Shown: one piece after another, positions 3,103 through 48,948 of the stretch
Layout: each line of letters opens with the position of its first letter
How positions within the stretch are numbered: the first letter of the stretch is position 1
Origin: a virus
Direction: 5' to 3' (one strand)
Length of the DNA: 64,000 nucleotides
Virus record (IMG/VR): IMGVR_UViG_3300032331_001791
Span: 1 to 64,000 of that record
Notes under the pieces: generated by a model
The model's input: only the letters and a program-made list of their open reading frames with translations
Told to the model about the DNA's origin: nothing
Database searches by the model: none
Translations under genes and position numbers: made by a program

Positions 3103-3330
3103 TCAATCAATCATATGATTTTGCTTGGCCGCTCTAAGCAATCTCCAAAAATAAGATTCTTTGAGTCCATTCAATTGAGTGATTACATTTGTTAGTCTAT
3201 GAACGACATCCTCTGATAGCTGATTGCTAGATAATATTGATTCTAACTCTTTTTCTGCAAACTTAAATGTTTGTTTTTCAGCATCGGTAAAAGAAGTTAA
3301 TTGTTTCTTGATATCTCCATCGGTAATCAT
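3103..3330 (-). CDS. Small protein downstream of UvsW (UvsW.1 position)
   Basis: 75 residues, mostly helical and charged, no recognised domain. Its start overlaps the end of the helicase gene by 4 bp (ATGA), so the two are translationally coupled. In T4 a protein of nearly the same size, UvsW.1, lies directly behind uvsW. Position and length agree, but I see no convincing sequence match, so the equivalence is positional only. It converges with the membrane-protein gene to its left with a 4 bp gap. Confidence 0.65.
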   Translation of the reverse strand: MITDGDIKKQLTSFTDAEKQTFKFAEKELESILSSNQLSEDVVHRLTNVITQLNGLKESYFWRLLRAAKQNHMID

Positions 3331-4728: not shown

Positions 4729-5466
4729 ATGATTCCTCAAAACCAAGAAAAGAAACAAGAAATTATAGATAAGTTATTGGAGAACCTTCCAATCTCCACT
4801 GAAATTCCAATTGAATTACCATCAAAGAATAAATTGGACTATGTTAGAGATTCTTCAAAACCAATTGCAATACGAGCAATTACTTTTGAAGATGAGAAAG
4901 CCTTAGCATCAGTAAAGGGAAGAGGAGATATTCTGTCAATTTTGCTATCAAGATGTGTTTCTAATATAAATCTAGCGGAAATACTACCTTCAGATAGATT
5001 ATACTTATTATTAAAATTAAGAGAAATATCCTACAGTGATGATTATAATTTTGAAGTTAATTGCCAATATTGTTCTTCAGAAAATAAAGGATCTGTAAAA
5101 TTATCAGAACTGTCTGTAAAATACGCACCTGATGATTTCTCAGAAGTGACAGAAGTGTTTTTAAGTGGATTAAAGAAAAAAGTTAAAGTTAAAATCTTAA
5201 AAGTAAAAGATGAGGCTTACTGCAAAGATTCCTTAGACATAATAAGTAATCTTTGGAGATTTGTTGAGGAAATAGACAATATTACTGATAAGAGTGTTAT
5301 ATCAGAAGTTATTCAGAAACTTCCATCTAAGGATATTAAGAAGATAGTATCTTGCCTAAATCCCGCCATTGGTGTAGATACAACAATCGGATTTGAGTGT
5401 GCATCCTGTAAGAAATTAAATACTATTAGCCTCCCAATAACATCCGATTTTTTTTCCGAGAGTTAG
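4729..5466 (+). CDS. 26: gp26-like baseplate hub / tail assembly protein
   Basis: 245 residues. Resembles the T4 gp26 family: an N-terminal region with PIAIRAITFEDEKAL, the stretch LPSDRLYLLLKLREISYSD (about 87-105) typical of this family, then a zinc-type CxxC (CQYC) and a second CxxC near the C-terminus (CASC). In T4, gp26 is needed for baseplate hub assembly and is followed by gene 51. The last codons contain a run of eight T (5448-5455) before the TAG stop. The -1 frame continues open for 64 codons, so a minor elongated product is likely (see the next entries). Ribosome site AAGGAG, well spaced. Confidence 0.8.
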   Translation: MIPQNQEKKQEIIDKLLENLPISTEIPIELPSKNKLDYVRDSSKPIAIRAITFEDEKALASVKGRGDILSILLSRCVSNINLAEILPSDRLYLLLKLREISYSDDYNFEVNCQYCSSENKGSVKLSELSVKYAPDDFSEVTEVFLSGLKKKVKVKILKVKDEAYCKDSLDIISNLWRFVEEIDNITDKSVISEVIQKLPSKDIKKIVSCLNPAIGVDTTIGFECASCKKLNTISLPITSDFFSES

Positions 5467-5493
5467 AGACAGGGATAAATTTAGATTCCCTGT
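5448..5493 (+). promoter_or_regulatory. Candidate programmed -1 ribosomal frameshift signal
   Basis: Bases 5448-5454 read T TTT TTT in the gp26 frame, a perfect X XXY YYZ slippery heptamer. The zero-frame stop follows at 5464-5466. A hairpin with a perfect 7 bp stem (ACAGGGA 5469-5475 with TCCCTGT 5487-5493, 11-nt loop) begins 14 nt downstream of the heptamer, a somewhat long but usable spacer. After slipping, reading continues in the -1 frame to the stop at 5646-5648. All parts are seen directly; that they act as a frameshift signal is inference. Confidence 0.7.
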
Positions 5494-5648
5494 ACTTAGA
5501 AGCCTATATACTTGTACATGAGGCTGGATTCACCTATTTAGATGTTAAGTCTATGCCTAGGTTTGAGCGTATAGTATTCTTAAATTTATTAAAAGAACAA
5601 TCGGAAAGAGAAAAAGATGCAATTGAACGGAGTAAATCTCGTAGATAG
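5454..5648 (+). CDS. -1 frame extension of gp26 (tail assembly chaperone-type fusion; T4 gene 51 position)
   Basis: 64 codons open in the -1 frame, with no ATG before about 5553 and no ribosome site, so the segment is best read as the C-terminal extension of a gp26 fusion of about 306 residues. The peptide (phrases LYLEAYILVHEAGF, SMPRFERIVFLNLL, then a charged KEQSEREKDAIERSK tail) resembles the extension domains of tail assembly chaperones, which in lambda and many other phages (G/GT) are made by -1 frameshifting. In T4 the next gene is 51. Its end overlaps the following gene by 32 bp. Function is inferred from architecture. Confidence 0.65.
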   Translation, partial: FRELETGINLDSLYLEAYILVHEAGFTYLDVKSMPRFERIVFLNLLKEQSEREKDAIERSKSRR

Positions 5649-6576
5649 AAACAATAGACCTGGAGTTCTCCAGAAGGTCGCACTTAAAGTATTCTTTGTT
5701 AATAATGGAGAATACTATGATCCTTACGATATCAGTGGTGTTACTATCTTTAATAGATTGTCAAATACCTCTCCAAGCTCTGTTCTTGATACAAGCACAG
5801 GTTTGATAAAGACTGGGGAAGCCGGATTAGCATCAAGCCTTATCCTAATGAACTTTGGAGCTTCTGCAAACGATTCAGGAGCGGCACTAAACGCAAGTTC
5901 TTATAATCCAGCAGTCGCAGCTTCAACAAGTGGTATATATAGAATCTCAAAAGGAGAGTATGTTTGTGTTTTGGATGGAACACAAGACATCTCTGGAGTT
6001 TACAATCTCAATGGAAGCTCTCTTCTAATTCCAAATAAGGCTTCTGCCACAGGGGATTATATTGATGTCTGGACTGTTAAATTTGTTCAAAGTTCAGATT
6101 ATCAGTCCTTAGTAAACTATTTCAGTTTATATAGAGATACTTTCTTTACTGTAACTGAACCACTATTACTCACTACACAAAATCGACTTGTTCAAAAGCA
6201 TCTGAAATTAGATTCTATTGTAAATCTACAGGTAACAACTGAAGTAAACATTGGTAATAGAGCTATAAGTGAATCTACTAGAAATGTATTTAAAGATTCT
6301 TCTGTTGTCTCTGCAATGTTTAAGATTGAGAAAATAAATGAGGACACTCAAACACTTCCATCCCGAGTTGAAGTTTCTGGTTTCTCAACAACATCTTCTC
6401 TTGTTAGTGTAACTGATGGGAATACGATGACACTACTATTTGATACAACAAAATTAGCAACACATCCTAGCGTTGCTAATTTTGGTGGATTAACTGGAAC
6501 TTACTGTTTGACCTGTAAGTATAATCTACTTAACGAAACAGTAGTTACTCAACCCATGTATTTCATCATATCCTGA
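5617..6576 (+). CDS. Probable virion structural protein, unknown
   Basis: 319 residues rich in S, T, N, V and L with beta-strand character and few charged runs, like other virion proteins here; no recognised domain. It begins inside the gp26 extension and ends converging with the primase gene, overlapping it by 28 bp. It sits among baseplate hub genes, so a hub, baseplate or tail role is likely but unproven. There is a recurring phrase order of strand plus polar loop (for example STTSSLVSVTDGNTMTLLF) that would fit immunoglobulin-like folds. Confidence 0.65.
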   Translation: MQLNGVNLVDRNNRPGVLQKVALKVFFVNNGEYYDPYDISGVTIFNRLSNTSPSSVLDTSTGLIKTGEAGLASSLILMNFGASANDSGAALNASSYNPAVAASTSGIYRISKGEYVCVLDGTQDISGVYNLNGSSLLIPNKASATGDYIDVWTVKFVQSSDYQSLVNYFSLYRDTFFTVTEPLLLTTQNRLVQKHLKLDSIVNLQVTTEVNIGNRAISESTRNVFKDSSVVSAMFKIEKINEDTQTLPSRVEVSGFSTTSSLVSVTDGNTMTLLFDTTKLATHPSVANFGGLTGTYCLTCKYNLLNETVVTQPMYFIIS

Positions 6577-9012: not shown

Positions 9013-10755
9013 ATGGCAGATTCCAATATTTTATTACAAACTTTAGATGCTAGTCTCAAAGCAACTGGGGCTGTATTTGATATTGGAACAAAAACACTAG
9101 GACTTGCGATTGACCAATTAAAAGATCAATTAAAAGAATTTGATGCTTTACAAGAACAATCTTTAGGTATAGGATTAACTTATACAGAAGCTTTAAATAA
9201 AAATAATTTAGCAATAGGTAAATTTGGAGCAACCCTAGACACAGCTTTTAATATAAATCTAAGTTTAGTAAAAAATAGATTAGAAACCAATACAGAAGGT
9301 TTAGTAAAACTTGCAGCCATTCAAGAAGCTCTAGGAATTTCTAGCAAAGAAACAATTTCAACATTTAAACAAGTAGGGATCATAGGAGGGCTGACAAATG
9401 ATCAACTTGGCAATCTAGCTAGAATTACAGCAGATTCAGCACTCATGTACAACACATCTACTGAGGTTCTAGTCAAGGCGTTAGACGCTTTAAAACCAGC
9501 AGTAGAAGGAGCAATGCTTGCAAATGGGGATGTTGCTGGATTAGCAGAAGCTTCTATGATGGCAGTTGCTGCCGCAGGGGAAGCTAATGCTGATAGAATG
9601 ATAGAAGTTATAAACTTCTTAGCTGACCCAAGTATTGAGGCTAGAGCAAAGAAAGCTCAGTTAGGTATTTTAGATAGCACTAATGGATTGCTTTTTGAGA
9701 GTTTAAGTGCAGAGCAAAAAGCTAAATTAGTATTTGATAATATTAATAAAGCTGCGGATACTCTAACTAAGAATTTTGGAAACAACATTAATACAAAAGA
9801 TATTTTAAAATCTTTAGGATTAGAGCAATTAGGAATTTCATTTATTGCTCTTTCTGAGAATGTTGGAGCTTTGAATGTATCAATAGATGAAACCCTTGCG
9901 TCTCAAAGAGCAAATGCTGCATTAAATAATGTTTTTGAAGGTATAGAATCAGCATTTAATAATCTAAAAAGATCTGTTGGTGAAAGAATTGAACCAATAA
10001 CACAAACAATAATAGATGTTGCTAATGCTATAGCTATAGGAATTGGAACTGCTCTTGATCCTATTTTTAAATATTTTGATGAACTTACTCAAAAGCTTAA
10101 AGGAGAAAATAGAGAAAAAATTCTCCAAGAAATTTCAAATACGGTAACACAAGTTACCGCATCATTTTTATCTTTTTTAATAGAATTTGGACAATTTGCT
10201 GTCACTGCTGGAAAGATATTAATTGATTCATTACCTTCTTTAATGGCTATAGCAATGAAACTTCCAGAGGCGATTAATTCAGCTATTAGTTTATATAATG
10301 CAGCCGTTCCAGGGGGAATGGAACTTCCAGAACTCAAAACTCTTAATGATGAAGAAAAAGCAAAACTACAAGAATCTATGAAAGGTCTTACTGATTTAAA
10401 AACTTCATTAGGAAATACTAGTGATAATTTAACTAAAATAAGAGAGTATATGGATAGAACAGCTTCAGCAACAGAACAAACAGCAGAGAATACTGTAAAA
10501 GAACCAGAGAGAAAAAATATATTACAAGATACTAATGATCTGATAAATTCCACATTTAGAGAATTTTTTAGAATTCAAAATGAAATATCTCAAGGAAAAA
10601 CTCTATCTCAAATAGAATCCCATTTAGCTTACGCTGGTATTCAACAAGAAAGAGTATTAGATGCAGCAAGAGAAAATAATAATTTAATGGGAATACAAAC
10701 TAATGCGATTCAAAATCAAGAAATTCCAGCAGTAGCCCCTGCTCCAGGAGATTGA
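9013..10755 (+). CDS. 29: Tail tape measure protein (T4 gp29 role)
   Basis: 580 residues, the same size class as T4 gp29 (590). Almost entirely helical and Ala/Leu-rich with the two hydrophobic stretches usual in tape measures: about 333-356 (DVANAIAIGIGTALDPIFKY) and about 383-420 (ASFLSFLIEFGQFAV onward). Tape measures set tail length and sit in the tube lumen, bound by tail chaperones before assembly, which fits the gp26 frameshift pair upstream. It is followed at once by the tube-cap/baseplate genes, as gene 29 is followed by 48 and 54 in T4. No good ribosome site is visible (aaaattaaaaaATG). Confidence 0.85.
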   Translation: MADSNILLQTLDASLKATGAVFDIGTKTLGLAIDQLKDQLKEFDALQEQSLGIGLTYTEALNKNNLAIGKFGATLDTAFNINLSLVKNRLETNTEGLVKLAAIQEALGISSKETISTFKQVGIIGGLTNDQLGNLARITADSALMYNTSTEVLVKALDALKPAVEGAMLANGDVAGLAEASMMAVAAAGEANADRMIEVINFLADPSIEARAKKAQLGILDSTNGLLFESLSAEQKAKLVFDNINKAADTLTKNFGNNINTKDILKSLGLEQLGISFIALSENVGALNVSIDETLASQRANAALNNVFEGIESAFNNLKRSVGERIEPITQTIIDVANAIAIGIGTALDPIFKYFDELTQKLKGENREKILQEISNTVTQVTASFLSFLIEFGQFAVTAGKILIDSLPSLMAIAMKLPEAINSAISLYNAAVPGGMELPELKTLNDEEKAKLQESMKGLTDLKTSLGNTSDNLTKIREYMDRTASATEQTAENTVKEPERKNILQDTNDLINSTFREFFRIQNEISQGKTLSQIESHLAYAGIQQERVLDAARENNNLMGIQTNAIQNQEIPAVAPAPGD

Positions 10756-18327: not shown

Positions 18328-18792
18328 ATGGCATATAATCAAACAGTAAATGTGTATGGACCAGTAACACAAACTAAACTGGTTAATATAACCAAATCTA
18401 AACCTAAATTTTTTGGATTGAATTTTCCTGTTGGAAAATTTGCTAACTCTGGTGGATTCTTTAAATCAACAACTGGGGTAGAAACTATTCGTAGTGGAGT
18501 TCAACAATTATTACTTACAGAAAGAGGGGAGCGTGTTATGCTTCCTTTATTTGGTTGTAATCTTAGAAAATTTTTATTTCAGCAGTTGGATGATGTAACC
18601 TTTACTGAGATAAAAGAAGAGATTGCAACTTCTATAAGAAACTATACTTTGGATGTTGAATTAGTAAAATTAAATGTTTTTAGTTTAGATAATATTACTG
18701 AGACAGGTGGGCAAGCATTAAAAGTAATTGTATTACTTAGATTAACAGATGAAACTAGAACCCAGTTCGAAGTTGAGGTTATACTAGCATGA
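18328..18792 (+). CDS. 25: Baseplate wedge protein gp25
   Basis: 154 residues. Shows the conserved gp25/GPW features: GGFFKSTTGVETIRSGVQQLLLTERGERVMLPLFGCNLRKFLF (split here across about 42-85) with the ERGER core, followed by a beta strand end. gp25 is the most conserved sheath-nucleating wedge piece of contractile machines and binds gp6. T4 gp25 is 132 residues, so this one has a short extra N-terminus. A 4 bp overlap leads to gp6. Confidence 0.92.
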   Translation: MAYNQTVNVYGPVTQTKLVNITKSKPKFFGLNFPVGKFANSGGFFKSTTGVETIRSGVQQLLLTERGERVMLPLFGCNLRKFLFQQLDDVTFTEIKEEIATSIRNYTLDVELVKLNVFSLDNITETGGQALKVIVLLRLTDETRTQFEVEVILA

Positions 18793-40459: not shown

Positions 40460-42094
40460 ATGCTTATGGATTCAATGTATGTACATGATGAACAATTAGT
40501 ACAAAAGTGGGAGCCAGTTCTTGACGGCATTAAGACTGACTATGCCAAAAGAGTTACTGCTCAACTTTTAGAAAACCAAGCCAAAGCGATTGTCGAACAA
40601 AAGATGATCAATGAGGCTGATGCTCCAACTTCAGTTGGTAACCTTGGCACTTTTGCCAAGTTCGCATTCCCACTTATTCGTAGAGTCTATCCCGATCTGA
40701 TAGCTTCTAACTTCGTTGGCGTACAGCCAATGCAAGGCCCTGTAAGCCAAGTTTTCTATCTTGGTCACTCACGCCACCATGGAGCAGGTGGTAGAAGCGA
40801 AACTATTTATAGTAAGTTTAACATGACCCCCCTAGGCATGGCTGCTTCTGCAATTGGTTCAGCTTCTGGAAACGGATTTCCAATAAACACCTTTACTGGT
40901 ACAACAGGGGGTCTTGATGGAGATATAGCAGCATCAGGTGGATTTGATGTATCTAATGTGCTTGCATATGGAGTGGCTAATGGTTTTGCTAGTGGATATG
41001 GATGGCCTAGCTCAACAATGGGTGGCCGTTTAGCTGCATTCCCAAATGCCAATTCAACCATGGGATGGATTGTAAGTGCTGGTGAAAGACTTTCAGGAGA
41101 TCAAATTCCTGAACTCAGCATTCACATTGAACAGGAAGCTGTAATTTCAAGAACTCGTAAGATGCGTGCTCTCTGGACTCTTGAAGCTTCACAAGATCTC
41201 AAGGCTTATCACAATCTTGATCTAGAGCGTGAACTCACTGATCTTCTCTCAAAAGAACTTCAGCTTGAAATAGACCGTGAACTAATCGAAGATCTCCGTA
41301 TGATTGCATATGGATTTAATAGAAACAATTCTATAAATCAGATGGGTGGAGCTTCTCTAAAGAACATGGATAGCGATTACATTTCTTTAGGTTCCTTTGA
41401 AGGTCTTGCAACTGCTTCAACTGCTGCCACTGGTACATTCAGCCCTGGTCAGTTTAACTATTCTCAAACTGATGGAGTTGTAAGCTATAACATTCCAACT
41501 TCAGATGGTAAGAGATCAAATGTCTTTATTTGCGATTTAACAAACGCAGGAATTACATTTAATCCTCGCCATGTTGGTGAAGCTTATGCTAACCTCTTAG
41601 CAGTGATTAACCTTGCTTCACAGGATATCTATAAGACAACTCTAAGAGGTCCTGGTAGCTGGCTACTCACTTCACCACTAGTTGCTTCACTCCTAGAGAG
41701 TGCTGCCAAGCTCGAAGGTGGAGTTGCAAGAGAAGATGGCCCAACAAACATGGGCAATGCTGGAATCAGCTTCAAGGGTAAGTTCATGGGACGCTATGAC
41801 CTTTATGTTGACCCAATGTATCCCGATGATGAGATCATGGTTGGCTATAAGGGAGCTAATGCTATGGATGCTGGATTTATCTACGCTCCATACATCCCAC
41901 TACAGCAACTCCCAACAGTTGTTGATCCTGCTACCTTCCAACCCAGAAAGGGAATCTTAACAAGATACGGTAAGGTCCAGGTTGAACCTGCCTCAAGATT
42001 CTATAGAATCATCAGATTGGTTGGAGCTACTTCTCAGTATCTCTTCGTCAATGGTTCTCGTAATACTAGGGTCGCAAATACTCCTGTTATCTGA
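40460..42094 (+). CDS. 23: Major capsid protein gp23
   Basis: 544 residues (T4 gp23 is 521). HK97-fold shell protein of the T4 type: VGNLGTFAKFAFPLIRRVYPDLIASNFVGVQPMQGP (split over about 59-94) is highly conserved, as is SQDIYKTTLRGPGSW near 390. Sequence INE-A (cleavage after Glu 52) matches the gp21 site that removes the propeptide in T4 (after residue 65). It uses host-like CGT and CTC codons in contrast to the tail genes, so it is adapted for high expression. The gene ends in front of a strong terminator. Confidence 0.95.
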   Translation: MLMDSMYVHDEQLVQKWEPVLDGIKTDYAKRVTAQLLENQAKAIVEQKMINEADAPTSVGNLGTFAKFAFPLIRRVYPDLIASNFVGVQPMQGPVSQVFYLGHSRHHGAGGRSETIYSKFNMTPLGMAASAIGSASGNGFPINTFTGTTGGLDGDIAASGGFDVSNVLAYGVANGFASGYGWPSSTMGGRLAAFPNANSTMGWIVSAGERLSGDQIPELSIHIEQEAVISRTRKMRALWTLEASQDLKAYHNLDLERELTDLLSKELQLEIDRELIEDLRMIAYGFNRNNSINQMGGASLKNMDSDYISLGSFEGLATASTAATGTFSPGQFNYSQTDGVVSYNIPTSDGKRSNVFICDLTNAGITFNPRHVGEAYANLLAVINLASQDIYKTTLRGPGSWLLTSPLVASLLESAAKLEGGVAREDGPTNMGNAGISFKGKFMGRYDLYVDPMYPDDEIMVGYKGANAMDAGFIYAPYIPLQQLPTVVDPATFQPRKGILTRYGKVQVEPASRFYRIIRLVGATSQYLFVNGSRNTRVANTPVI

Positions 42095-42156: not shown

Positions 42157-42161
42157 ACCTA

Positions 42162-42167
42162 TATAAT
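42162..42167 (+). promoter_or_regulatory. TATAAT element after the gp23 terminator
   Basis: The sequence ttacctaTATAATttag starts 6 bp after the terminator and 13 bp before the next start codon. Its context, ACCTAT-ATAAT, resembles ACCTATAATA before the 851-residue protein gene. No good -35 box is seen, as expected for a T4-type late promoter. Candidate start of the neck-tail transcript. Confidence 0.45.
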
Positions 42168-46215: not shown

Positions 46216-48357
46216 ATGCCAAATTTCGTTAGCCCAGGTGTATATGTAATTGAGAAAGATATATCAGAGTACACGCCATCACTCAATAGCTCTATAGTAG
46301 GTATTGTTGGCTTTGCTTCAAAAGGTCCTACTAATAAAGCTACTTTGATAACTGATCAAGCCTCATTAGTCAGAATTTTCGGAGAGCCAAGTGAAGATAT
46401 TTATGGTCAAGGCTTAGAGGGGGCTTTAGAAATATTAGAAACTACAAATGCTCTTTATTTTGTTAGAGCAGCAAGCACAGACGCTGCTGATGCATCATCA
46501 ACTATTCGATTTGGTGCTTGCCCAGCAGTTATAGTTTCTGGTCCAACAACTGGTATTACAGGTTCTTTTGGAATAACAAGTTCTTTATATTTAACGATAG
46601 ATATTTATAATAATAATGGTGTTGCAGAATATGCATCACCAAAAAGATTTGCAATTCCTGCTTCAACCATAACTTCTACAGAGTCTGGAGCTTGTCAGGC
46701 CAGAGCATTAAAAAAAGTAATTGGGGGTGATTTAGATGCCGATGCTGTTGGAGTTTTTGATAATAATGAAACTACAACGGGCTTAGGATTATCAGGAGCT
46801 ATAGTTTCAAAATATGCAGGATCTGGAGCATACATGACTGTCAATGCGTATGCTAATTCTACTTATACTACAGGATTAGCTGCCTTAGTTGGGGTTGTTC
46901 ATGCTAGTGGTGGAAATGGCTACTTTGGAGCCTCAGGAGCGGTTGCATCTTCAGTTACTGTTTATGGAGCAAGTTTCACAACTGGTACTCTAAGCTATTT
47001 AGTAGAATCATTATATCCAGGTGCTGGGTATAATGCAGGAACAACTACTGCTGGAGATACTAGTGGAAATTCTATAACTATTAGAAATATCGGTGCTGGT
47101 GGATTCTTTGTAGATGTAAACCAAGATGGTGCTGTTGTTGAAAATTTCAAAGCGCAGCTTTTTGCTAGTGGAGCATTCTTAGAGGATGTTATTAACACTG
47201 GAGAAACTGATACTACTTCAGAATATATAAAAGGTAATTTACTAGCTACAGGTTCGGACATTGCTACAGTTACAAAACTTAATAACTTTGCAAGTGTTGC
47301 AAGTGCATTAGGAGCCGCTGCTATAACAGGAACTCAAGGTGGGGGCATTACTTTTACAAATCATAGTCCAGCAAGATTTGTTAAACCTTTAGCAGCAACA
47401 TATAATCTTGGTAATGGTAATAATGGAGTTCCCTCCACCGAAGCATTAAGAGCAACTGCTCTCATAGGAGATGCAGCTACAGAACCAAAAACAGGAATGC
47501 AAGCTCTTGATGATGATTTACTAAATATAGGAATTGCTTTAGTTCCAGGAGTTTATACTCAAAGTGTTCAAAATGCACTAATAACTCTTGCTGAAAATAC
47601 TCAAAACTTTATAGCCTTAGTATCCCCCCCTTATGGAATAGGAACTGTACAAGATGCTATAGATTGGACAAATGGTAAATCTTCAAGTACAGCAGGATCA
47701 AGAACGGCTGCTATCAATAGTTCTTACGCTGCTGTATACTTCCCCCATATTAAAGTATTTAGCACATTTGATGCTAAAGATCGTTGGTATGACCCAACTA
47801 TCTTTGCTGCAAGACAAATGGCATACACTGATTCAGTATCTGAAACTTGGTTTGCCCCTGCTGGCTATGTCAGAGGTAGATTAACTAAGCCAACTGATGT
47901 TGAAGTTAAACTAAATCAAGGGGATAGAGATGTGATGTACAGTGGTGGAAATGTCATTAACCCAATTGTTAACTTTGCACAACAAGGTATAACAATATTC
48001 GGACAAAGAACCACTCAAAGAGCATCCACAGCGTTAGATAGAATTAATGTTAGAAGACTAATGATTTATGTAAGAAAGATCATTCTAGCTTCAACAAGAA
48101 CTTTAGTTTTCGAGCCTAATGATGAATTCACTTGGGCCAAAGTTGAAGGTCTACTAAATCCATTCTTTGACGATATCAAACAGAGAAGAGGTATTACTGA
48201 GTTCAGAGTGATTTGTGATGCCACTACAAATACTCCAGTAAGAATTGATCGTAACGAAATGTGGTGTAGAGTTCTAATCAAACCTACTAAGACTGCTGAG
48301 ATTATAGTATTCGAACTTAACCTCACTAATCAATCAGCCCAATTAGGTTCACTCTAA
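46216..48357 (+). CDS. 18: Tail sheath protein gp18
   Basis: 713 residues (T4 gp18 659). N-terminal NFVSPGVYVIEKDISEYTPSLNSSIVGIVGFASKGPTNKATLI (split 3-45) and C-terminal INVRRLMIYVRKIILASTRTLVFEPND, then WCRVLIKPTKTAEIIVFELNL, are the sheath domains that form the donated-strand mesh. Contracts to drive the tube through the envelope. The middle part (about 140-330) is a variable surface domain rich in G, A and T. Preceded by TAATAGGAGATAA. Confidence 0.95.
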   Translation: MPNFVSPGVYVIEKDISEYTPSLNSSIVGIVGFASKGPTNKATLITDQASLVRIFGEPSEDIYGQGLEGALEILETTNALYFVRAASTDAADASSTIRFGACPAVIVSGPTTGITGSFGITSSLYLTIDIYNNNGVAEYASPKRFAIPASTITSTESGACQARALKKVIGGDLDADAVGVFDNNETTTGLGLSGAIVSKYAGSGAYMTVNAYANSTYTTGLAALVGVVHASGGNGYFGASGAVASSVTVYGASFTTGTLSYLVESLYPGAGYNAGTTTAGDTSGNSITIRNIGAGGFFVDVNQDGAVVENFKAQLFASGAFLEDVINTGETDTTSEYIKGNLLATGSDIATVTKLNNFASVASALGAAAITGTQGGGITFTNHSPARFVKPLAATYNLGNGNNGVPSTEALRATALIGDAATEPKTGMQALDDDLLNIGIALVPGVYTQSVQNALITLAENTQNFIALVSPPYGIGTVQDAIDWTNGKSSSTAGSRTAAINSSYAAVYFPHIKVFSTFDAKDRWYDPTIFAARQMAYTDSVSETWFAPAGYVRGRLTKPTDVEVKLNQGDRDVMYSGGNVINPIVNFAQQGITIFGQRTTQRASTALDRINVRRLMIYVRKIILASTRTLVFEPNDEFTWAKVEGLLNPFFDDIKQRRGITEFRVICDATTNTPVRIDRNEMWCRVLIKPTKTAEIIVFELNLTNQSAQLGSL

Positions 48358-48369
48358 TAGGAGATAACT

Positions 48370-48948
48370 ATGCCTCAAAATTATAAAAAGATAAGAGTTC
48401 AACAGCCAGTAACAGATAAAACAATACCTGTTATCTCTACTGGATTAGATTCCGTCAAGAACTATCAGTTTGAAGTTTATATGAACATTCCATCTCTTAA
48501 CAATGCTGATGGGACAAAGCCAGAACAAATAGTTTTGGCTGCACACAGAGTTCAAGCTCAAGGTATGGAGATGGATGTTATCGAGGTAAATAGAGTAAAT
48601 GATAAACTCTACTATCCTGGAAAGGCTAAGATGGATACTCTTCAAATTGATTTTGATAATCAATATTTGCAGAAAAATGCTGCTGGTCTTTGGAAATACA
48701 TGACTAAAATGTATGATCCAATTACTGGTGTACAGAACTCTGAAGTTTCACCAGGAGGATCATTTAAGATTACTAGTATGAAAATCATTCAATTAAAGAA
48801 TGATATGACCCCTTACAGTGAAACTACTCTGTATGGAGTATTCCCAGTATCTTGGAAGTCATCTGAATTAAACTATAATGGAACCTCTGCTTTCCATACA
48901 ATTACGATGACCTTCAGATATGATTTTATGAATCACGCTCTAGTTTGA
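48370..48948 (+). CDS. 19: Tail tube protein gp19
   Basis: 192 residues (T4 gp19 163). Tube fold phrases: KNYQFEVYMNIPSL, VLAAHRVQAQGMEMDVIEV, SFKITSMKIIQLKND, and the C-terminal TMTFRYDFMNH. Preceded by TAATAGGAGATAA, almost identical to the gp18 leader, so the two genes are translated strongly and in parallel. A terminator follows. Confidence 0.92.
   Translation: MPQNYKKIRVQQPVTDKTIPVISTGLDSVKNYQFEVYMNIPSLNNADGTKPEQIVLAAHRVQAQGMEMDVIEVNRVNDKLYYPGKAKMDTLQIDFDNQYLQKNAAGLWKYMTKMYDPITGVQNSEVSPGGSFKITSMKIIQLKNDMTPYSETTLYGVFPVSWKSSELNYNGTSAFHTITMTFRYDFMNHALV

Follow-up and report, generated by a model that had tools for sequence, protein, structure and literature searches.

A conserved slippery heptamer between a T4 gp26-type gene and a gp51-like extension: a probable frameshifted tail assembly chaperone pair in a divergent marine phage lineage

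Vladimirov, Gautam and Davidson (Virology 2022) reportedly linked T4 genes 26 and 51 to the tail chaperones and to poly-T -1 sites, and are said to have described frameshifting in several T4-like groups, T4 itself having two separate genes. For T4-like phages, the frameshifted tail chaperone reading of gp26/gp51 is already in print, as cited in PMC10885494 and PMC12846349. Short and long versions of one tail-building helper, the long one arising when some ribosomes slip back a base on a T-run, are familiar from many tailed phages. In phage lambda, tail assembly involves a short form, gpG, and a minor -1 frameshifted long form, gpGT; the former covers the tape measure and the latter brings in the tube protein (PMC5009743). 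T4 gp26 and gp51 have been described as hub assembly chaperones, gp51 being essential for assembly and absent from the virion (PMC3004832). The TAC-N/TAC-NC pairs of T4-like phages combine a PF12322 short form, a poly-T -1 slip site close to the 3' end of its gene and a C-terminal extension. The locus described here has the same three parts; it differs in the position of the stop codon, which lies 9 nt after the slip site in nearly all of its lineage, whereas in the cyanophage-like relatives no gap separates it from the heptamer.

The window, by which we mean the whole stretch of 64,000 nucleotides analysed, is part of an IMG/VR record of 92,147 bases. It carries structural genes of T4-like kinds (sheath at 46216, wedge genes at 18328 and 18789, major head protein at 40460), and a helicase at 3327 occupies the position of T4 uvsW. 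A near-identity DNA search of the annotated phage collection with the window gave no match. The features of the locus and of its presumed partners are as follows.

4729-5466, plus strand: gp26-type gene encoding the short form (TAC-N) of 245 aa, which has two CxxC motifs (PF12322, phrog_150)
5448-5454, plus strand: slippery heptamer T TTT TTT in the gp26 phase (X XXY YYZ); an in-phase T TTT TTY is found in 66/66 sequences
5454-5648, plus strand: -1 extension (TAC-C), 64 aa and stop (phrog_634; helical model)
5463-5499, plus strand: stem-loop, 5469-5475 with 5487-5493 (7 bp), beyond a 2x2 internal loop also 5463-5466 with 5496-5499 as outer pairs
5464-5466, plus strand: 0-frame stop TAG, end of the short form, beginning after a 9-nt gap from the heptamer
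5499-5510, plus strand: GAAGCCTATATA, with hardly any synonymous change across the lineage, a candidate promoter or other signal inside the extension
5617-6576, plus strand: next gene, 319 aa, function unassigned, which follows the extension in the lineage's relatives
9013-10755, plus strand: putative tape measure protein, 580 aa, the presumed client, proposed from position and length variability
48370-48948: tail tube protein, gp19-type, a T4-like structural gene

On sequence evidence, the short form is a member of the T4 gp26 family, with matches to PF12322 (E=3.7e-20, 73 bits at a cut-off of 24.5) and to phrog_150 (E=1.5e-22). Its AlphaFold model is confident (pLDDT 86) and comes closest to the 'baseplate hub subunit' of phage SP-15 (TM 0.78), with further matches to predicted baseplate hub proteins of T4-like phages. 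A fold search of the PDB found no solved structure resembling the short form, and no solved chain was matched in a PDB sequence search by either the short-form or the extension profile. Identity between the gp26 of the lineage and the cyanophage-like forms is only 16-22%.

Relatives were gathered in a first round of 14, every one of which has the arrangement, in a later profile search that yielded 80 loci, and with a cyanophage-type query that yielded 12 further loci. After removal of duplicates, 66 distinct junctions were compared, 59 of the window's lineage (the window counted) and 7 from cyanophage-like contigs; the set spans down to about 20% identity. In the window, the gp26 frame ends GAT TTT TTT TCC GAG AGT TAG, with a T8 run at 5448-5455, so that the run and the perfectly phased heptamer claimed in an earlier note on this DNA are confirmed to the base. 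At every one of the 66 distinct junctions the heptamer reads T TTT TTT or T TTT TTC in phase and leads into a -1 extension, and hence T-run, phase and extension, whose conservation the earlier note had proposed to check, are kept throughout. The bodies of the same 66 gp26 genes have an in-phase T TTT TT at none of 15,372 codon positions, and among the plus-strand ORFs of at least 100 aa in the window the gp26 heptamer is the sole such site near a 3' end. In many relatives the -1 frame is closed right up to the heptamer, with the 0-frame stop 0-18 nt beyond it, which confines the shift to a very short stretch. The arrangement is also kept in distantly related, annotated PF12322 phages: C48C1 (Kyanoviridae), ORM_20, RL38J1 and Atu_ph07 combine T TTT TTN with a -1 extension.

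Since homopolymers invite sequencing errors and the record is metagenomic, one might suspect such an error, or else the decay of a once-continuous gene. The same frame break, however, recurs in all 66 distinct sequences with differing run lengths, which excludes sequencing error, and purifying constraint is found on both sides of it; none of the 66 has a continuous single frame. We give this reading next to no credence. A second explanation is transcriptional slippage, in which RNA polymerase would slip on the T-run and the extension would be read from mRNA of altered length. Eight T, the length found in the window, is in the range where polymerase slippage becomes possible, and six T is too short for efficient slippage. 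Over the 66 sequences the runs comprise 6 T (44 sequences), 7 T (12) or 8 T (10), and the prevalence of 6 T argues against slippage by the polymerase, as does the invariant phase of the heptamer, which such slippage would not need. We consider this mechanism highly improbable.

After the slip point at 5454, the -1 frame, which is open over 5430-5648, adds 64 codons (FRELETGINLDSLYLEAYILVHEAGFTYLDVKSMPRFERIVFLNLLKEQSEREKDAIERSKSRR), and the predicted fusion product (4729-5454 joined to 5454-5648) has 306 aa. The extension matches phrog_634, the 'baseplate hub assembly catalyst' or gp51 family, with E=0.001, and 37 of 47 aligned extensions match it as well. In profile comparisons the extension of the near lineage matches that of the cyanophages with 88% probability, and the latter matches the C-terminus of T4 gp51 (E 5e-5); the direct match of the near extension to T4 gp51 is weak. 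Judged by these profile matches, the extension is homologous to the C-terminal domain of T4 gp51. The earlier note had put it in the place of T4 gene 51; it corresponds to this domain and not to the whole of gp51. Modelling gives a helical domain for the extension (pLDDT 86), and among named proteins it is best matched by Gp51 of Prochlorococcus phage P-HM1 (E 0.07, probability 0.99); proteins named tail assembly chaperone were reached at E 1-3 only, and the PDB gave no match to a solved structure.

Could the extension instead be a small gene in its own right, a short gp51 with a start codon of its own, in the way some cyanophages are annotated? C48C1 and RL38J1 are annotated with a 'baseplate hub assembly catalyst' ORF of 34 or 58 codons at this place, and ATG 5553, the first start-type codon of the -1 frame, is conserved in the near lineage. 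That codon is, however, codon 35 and lies deep within the extension, where residue conservation sets in at the slip site, ahead of every conserved start codon. Possible -1 frame starts are scattered, and an SD-like sequence was found at only one among the first possible starts of the 66 sequences; the earlier note had seen neither a start codon nor a ribosome site for this open frame of 64 codons, and across the relatives no start codon with a ribosome site is conserved. A start of its own would also leave the in-phase heptamer unexplained. This alternative appears very improbable to us. In C48C1 the ORF called 'baseplate hub assembly catalyst' (L024:4738-4842; 34 codons and stop) is the tail end of the gp26 -1 extension, so that the gp51 annotation there is probably truncated.

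Downstream of the heptamer, the window can form a stem-loop in which ACAGGGA (5469-5475), 14 nt after the heptamer, pairs with TCCCTGT (5487-5493). In many relatives the stem begins about 9 nt after the heptamer and encloses the 0-frame stop, and many share the same register (columns 16-28 with 40-52). In 49 ungapped sequences, 69.7% of the cells are paired in the window's register versus 44-52% in slid controls, and doubly changed cells number 49 versus 25.7 in shuffles; pair 20-48 occurs as 6 pair types. Registers slid by -1 or -2 have similar numbers of doubly changed cells, and the best fold of one subgroup is displaced by two positions. RNAalifold found no single consensus structure for the 49 sequences, apparently because the stem changes register between subgroups. 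Compared with synonymous recoding, the stem region of the window has a z of -1.9 (MFE -13.6); over the sequences the mean z is -0.94, with p<0.05 in 26% of them. Three relatives (L028, L034 and L046) have no hairpin, and L028 is a close one. The perfect 7 bp hairpin from 5469 described in the earlier note is thus real in the window and frequent, with compensatory changes, in the lineage, but it is not strictly conserved. We take the stem-loop for a likely accessory stimulator that does not define the system.

Constraint on synonymous sites reaches from the slip site to about +70 nt, well beyond the overlap of the frames. Part of this constraint is accounted for by GCCTATATA at 5502-5510, which is synonymously frozen in 56 relatives; the codons of the longer motif are GCC in 54/54, TAT in 56/56 and ATA in 56/56 sequences of the lineage. 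GCCTATATA or CCTATATA may be a promoter of the window's lineage. CCTATATA is also found after a terminator-like hairpin at 42158 (42158-42165) and precedes genes in three relatives (L086, L094 and L100). The T4 late promoter TATAAATA was considered as an explanation of the frozen GCCTATATA and rejected, since the motifs differ. As a separate observation, the core TATAAATA occurs at 22 sites in the window versus 11.4 expected (0/100 shuffles were as high), many of them inside genes. At its 3' end the extension shares 32 nt (5617-5648) with the beginning of the next gene, which is read in another frame; this overlap would explain the raised codon conservation there.

T4 itself carries both forms. 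Against the N+C profile built from the cyanophage-like relatives, residues 5-243 of T4 gp51 align (E 1e-10), T4 gp26 aligns with the N part only (E 4e-12), and the two are paralogues by a weak match. T4 gp26 is thus homologous to the short form and gp51 to the short form plus extension; the difference is that T4 has no slip site and encodes the two on opposite strands, as separate genes.

A further arrangement is seen in LIS04, GXN1, SP-15, Slickus01 and the uncultured LR756508, where the open frame lies on the +1 (or -2) side. The short form of SP-15 is homologous to that of the lineage (profile match, E 8e-28), and in both SP-15 and LIS04 the gp26-type gene sits between the tail tube and tape measure genes. 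Their extensions are clearly gp51-like by eye; the automatic profile comparison of the extension with the single SP-15 sequence was not significant. SP-15 and LIS04 hence share with the window's lineage a homologous short form and a visibly similar C-terminal extension, and their gp26-type gene lies next to the tape measure gene, but the extension is read after a +1 (or -2) shift and not a -1 shift. SP-15, LIS04 and GXN1 have in common the end EFF..RF and a CC CGA TTY stretch, a possible shift site. Among the viral contigs, a search for further relatives of SP-15 returned only SP-15 itself, and one for ORM_20 returned none.

The large ORF at 9013-10755 has counterparts at the same place in relatives, which diverge fast and range from 509 to 745 aa. 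Profile comparison of its protein with the tape measures of T4 (gp29), SP-15 and LIS04 gave no match, and we therefore infer its identity from position and length variability. In the window and its relatives it lies 3.5 kb downstream of the gp26-type gene, with genes on both strands between, whereas the lambda gene adjoins the tape measure gene; the likeness to lambda is one of architecture, not of demonstrated sequence homology.

The description of T4 gp26 and gp51 as hub assembly chaperones, with gp51 absent from the virion, would also fit a frameshifted pair that acts in baseplate hub assembly and not on the tape measure. Yet the hub subunits listed for T4 include the tape measure gp29 itself, so that the hub and tape-measure descriptions overlap; the gene of SP-15 and LIS04 has the tail tube gene on one side and the tape measure gene on the other; and a short form paired with a long one is the architecture of tail assembly chaperones. 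We regard a hub role as unlikely, although it is the strongest of the alternatives.

Taken as a whole, we favour a frameshifted TAC-N/TAC-NC tail assembly chaperone pair of the lambda G/GT type, with a probability of roughly 90%, from sequence conservation and analogy. The earlier note had made the same proposal, and the conserved slip site and extension and the gp26/gp51 homology support it. In this explanation, a programmed -1 ribosomal frameshift at 5448-5454 would yield two proteins from one gene. Most ribosomes would stop at 5464 and release the 245-aa short form; a minority would slip back one base and produce the 306-aa long form with its 64-aa helical domain, probably helped in the window's phage by the stem-loop after the slip site. 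By T4 homology and lambda analogy, many copies of the short form would coat the candidate tape measure protein, and the rare long form would recruit tail tube subunits of the gp19 type and start tube polymerisation. Both forms would leave before the virion is complete.

The -1 and the separate-gene routes to the long chaperone are published; a +1/-2 route was not found in the literature searched. With little better than even confidence, we propose a single gp26/gp51-type family that makes its long chaperone in three ways, namely by a -1 slip at T TTT TTN (the window's lineage, cyanophages, Rhizobium and Agrobacterium phages), by shifting +1 or -2 (SP-15, LIS04 and relatives) and from a duplicated, fused gene (T4); in the present lineage the extension would in addition carry a stop-enclosing stem-loop and the frozen, possible promoter GCCTATATA.

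The link of T4 genes 26 and 51 to the general tail-chaperone system, which the earlier note had drawn, is supported, but it is not new, having reportedly been published in 2022. The conclusion of Vladimirov et al. 2022, as far as it is conveyed by the papers citing it, is independently reproduced here. What the present analysis adds to the case that the gp26/gp51-type 'hub assembly' proteins are frameshifted tail assembly chaperones is a divergent marine lineage of about 60 distinct sequences. T4 is then the exception, with two genes instead of a frameshift, and the extension is missed or truncated in annotations, as in the 34-codon gp51 fragment of C48C1.
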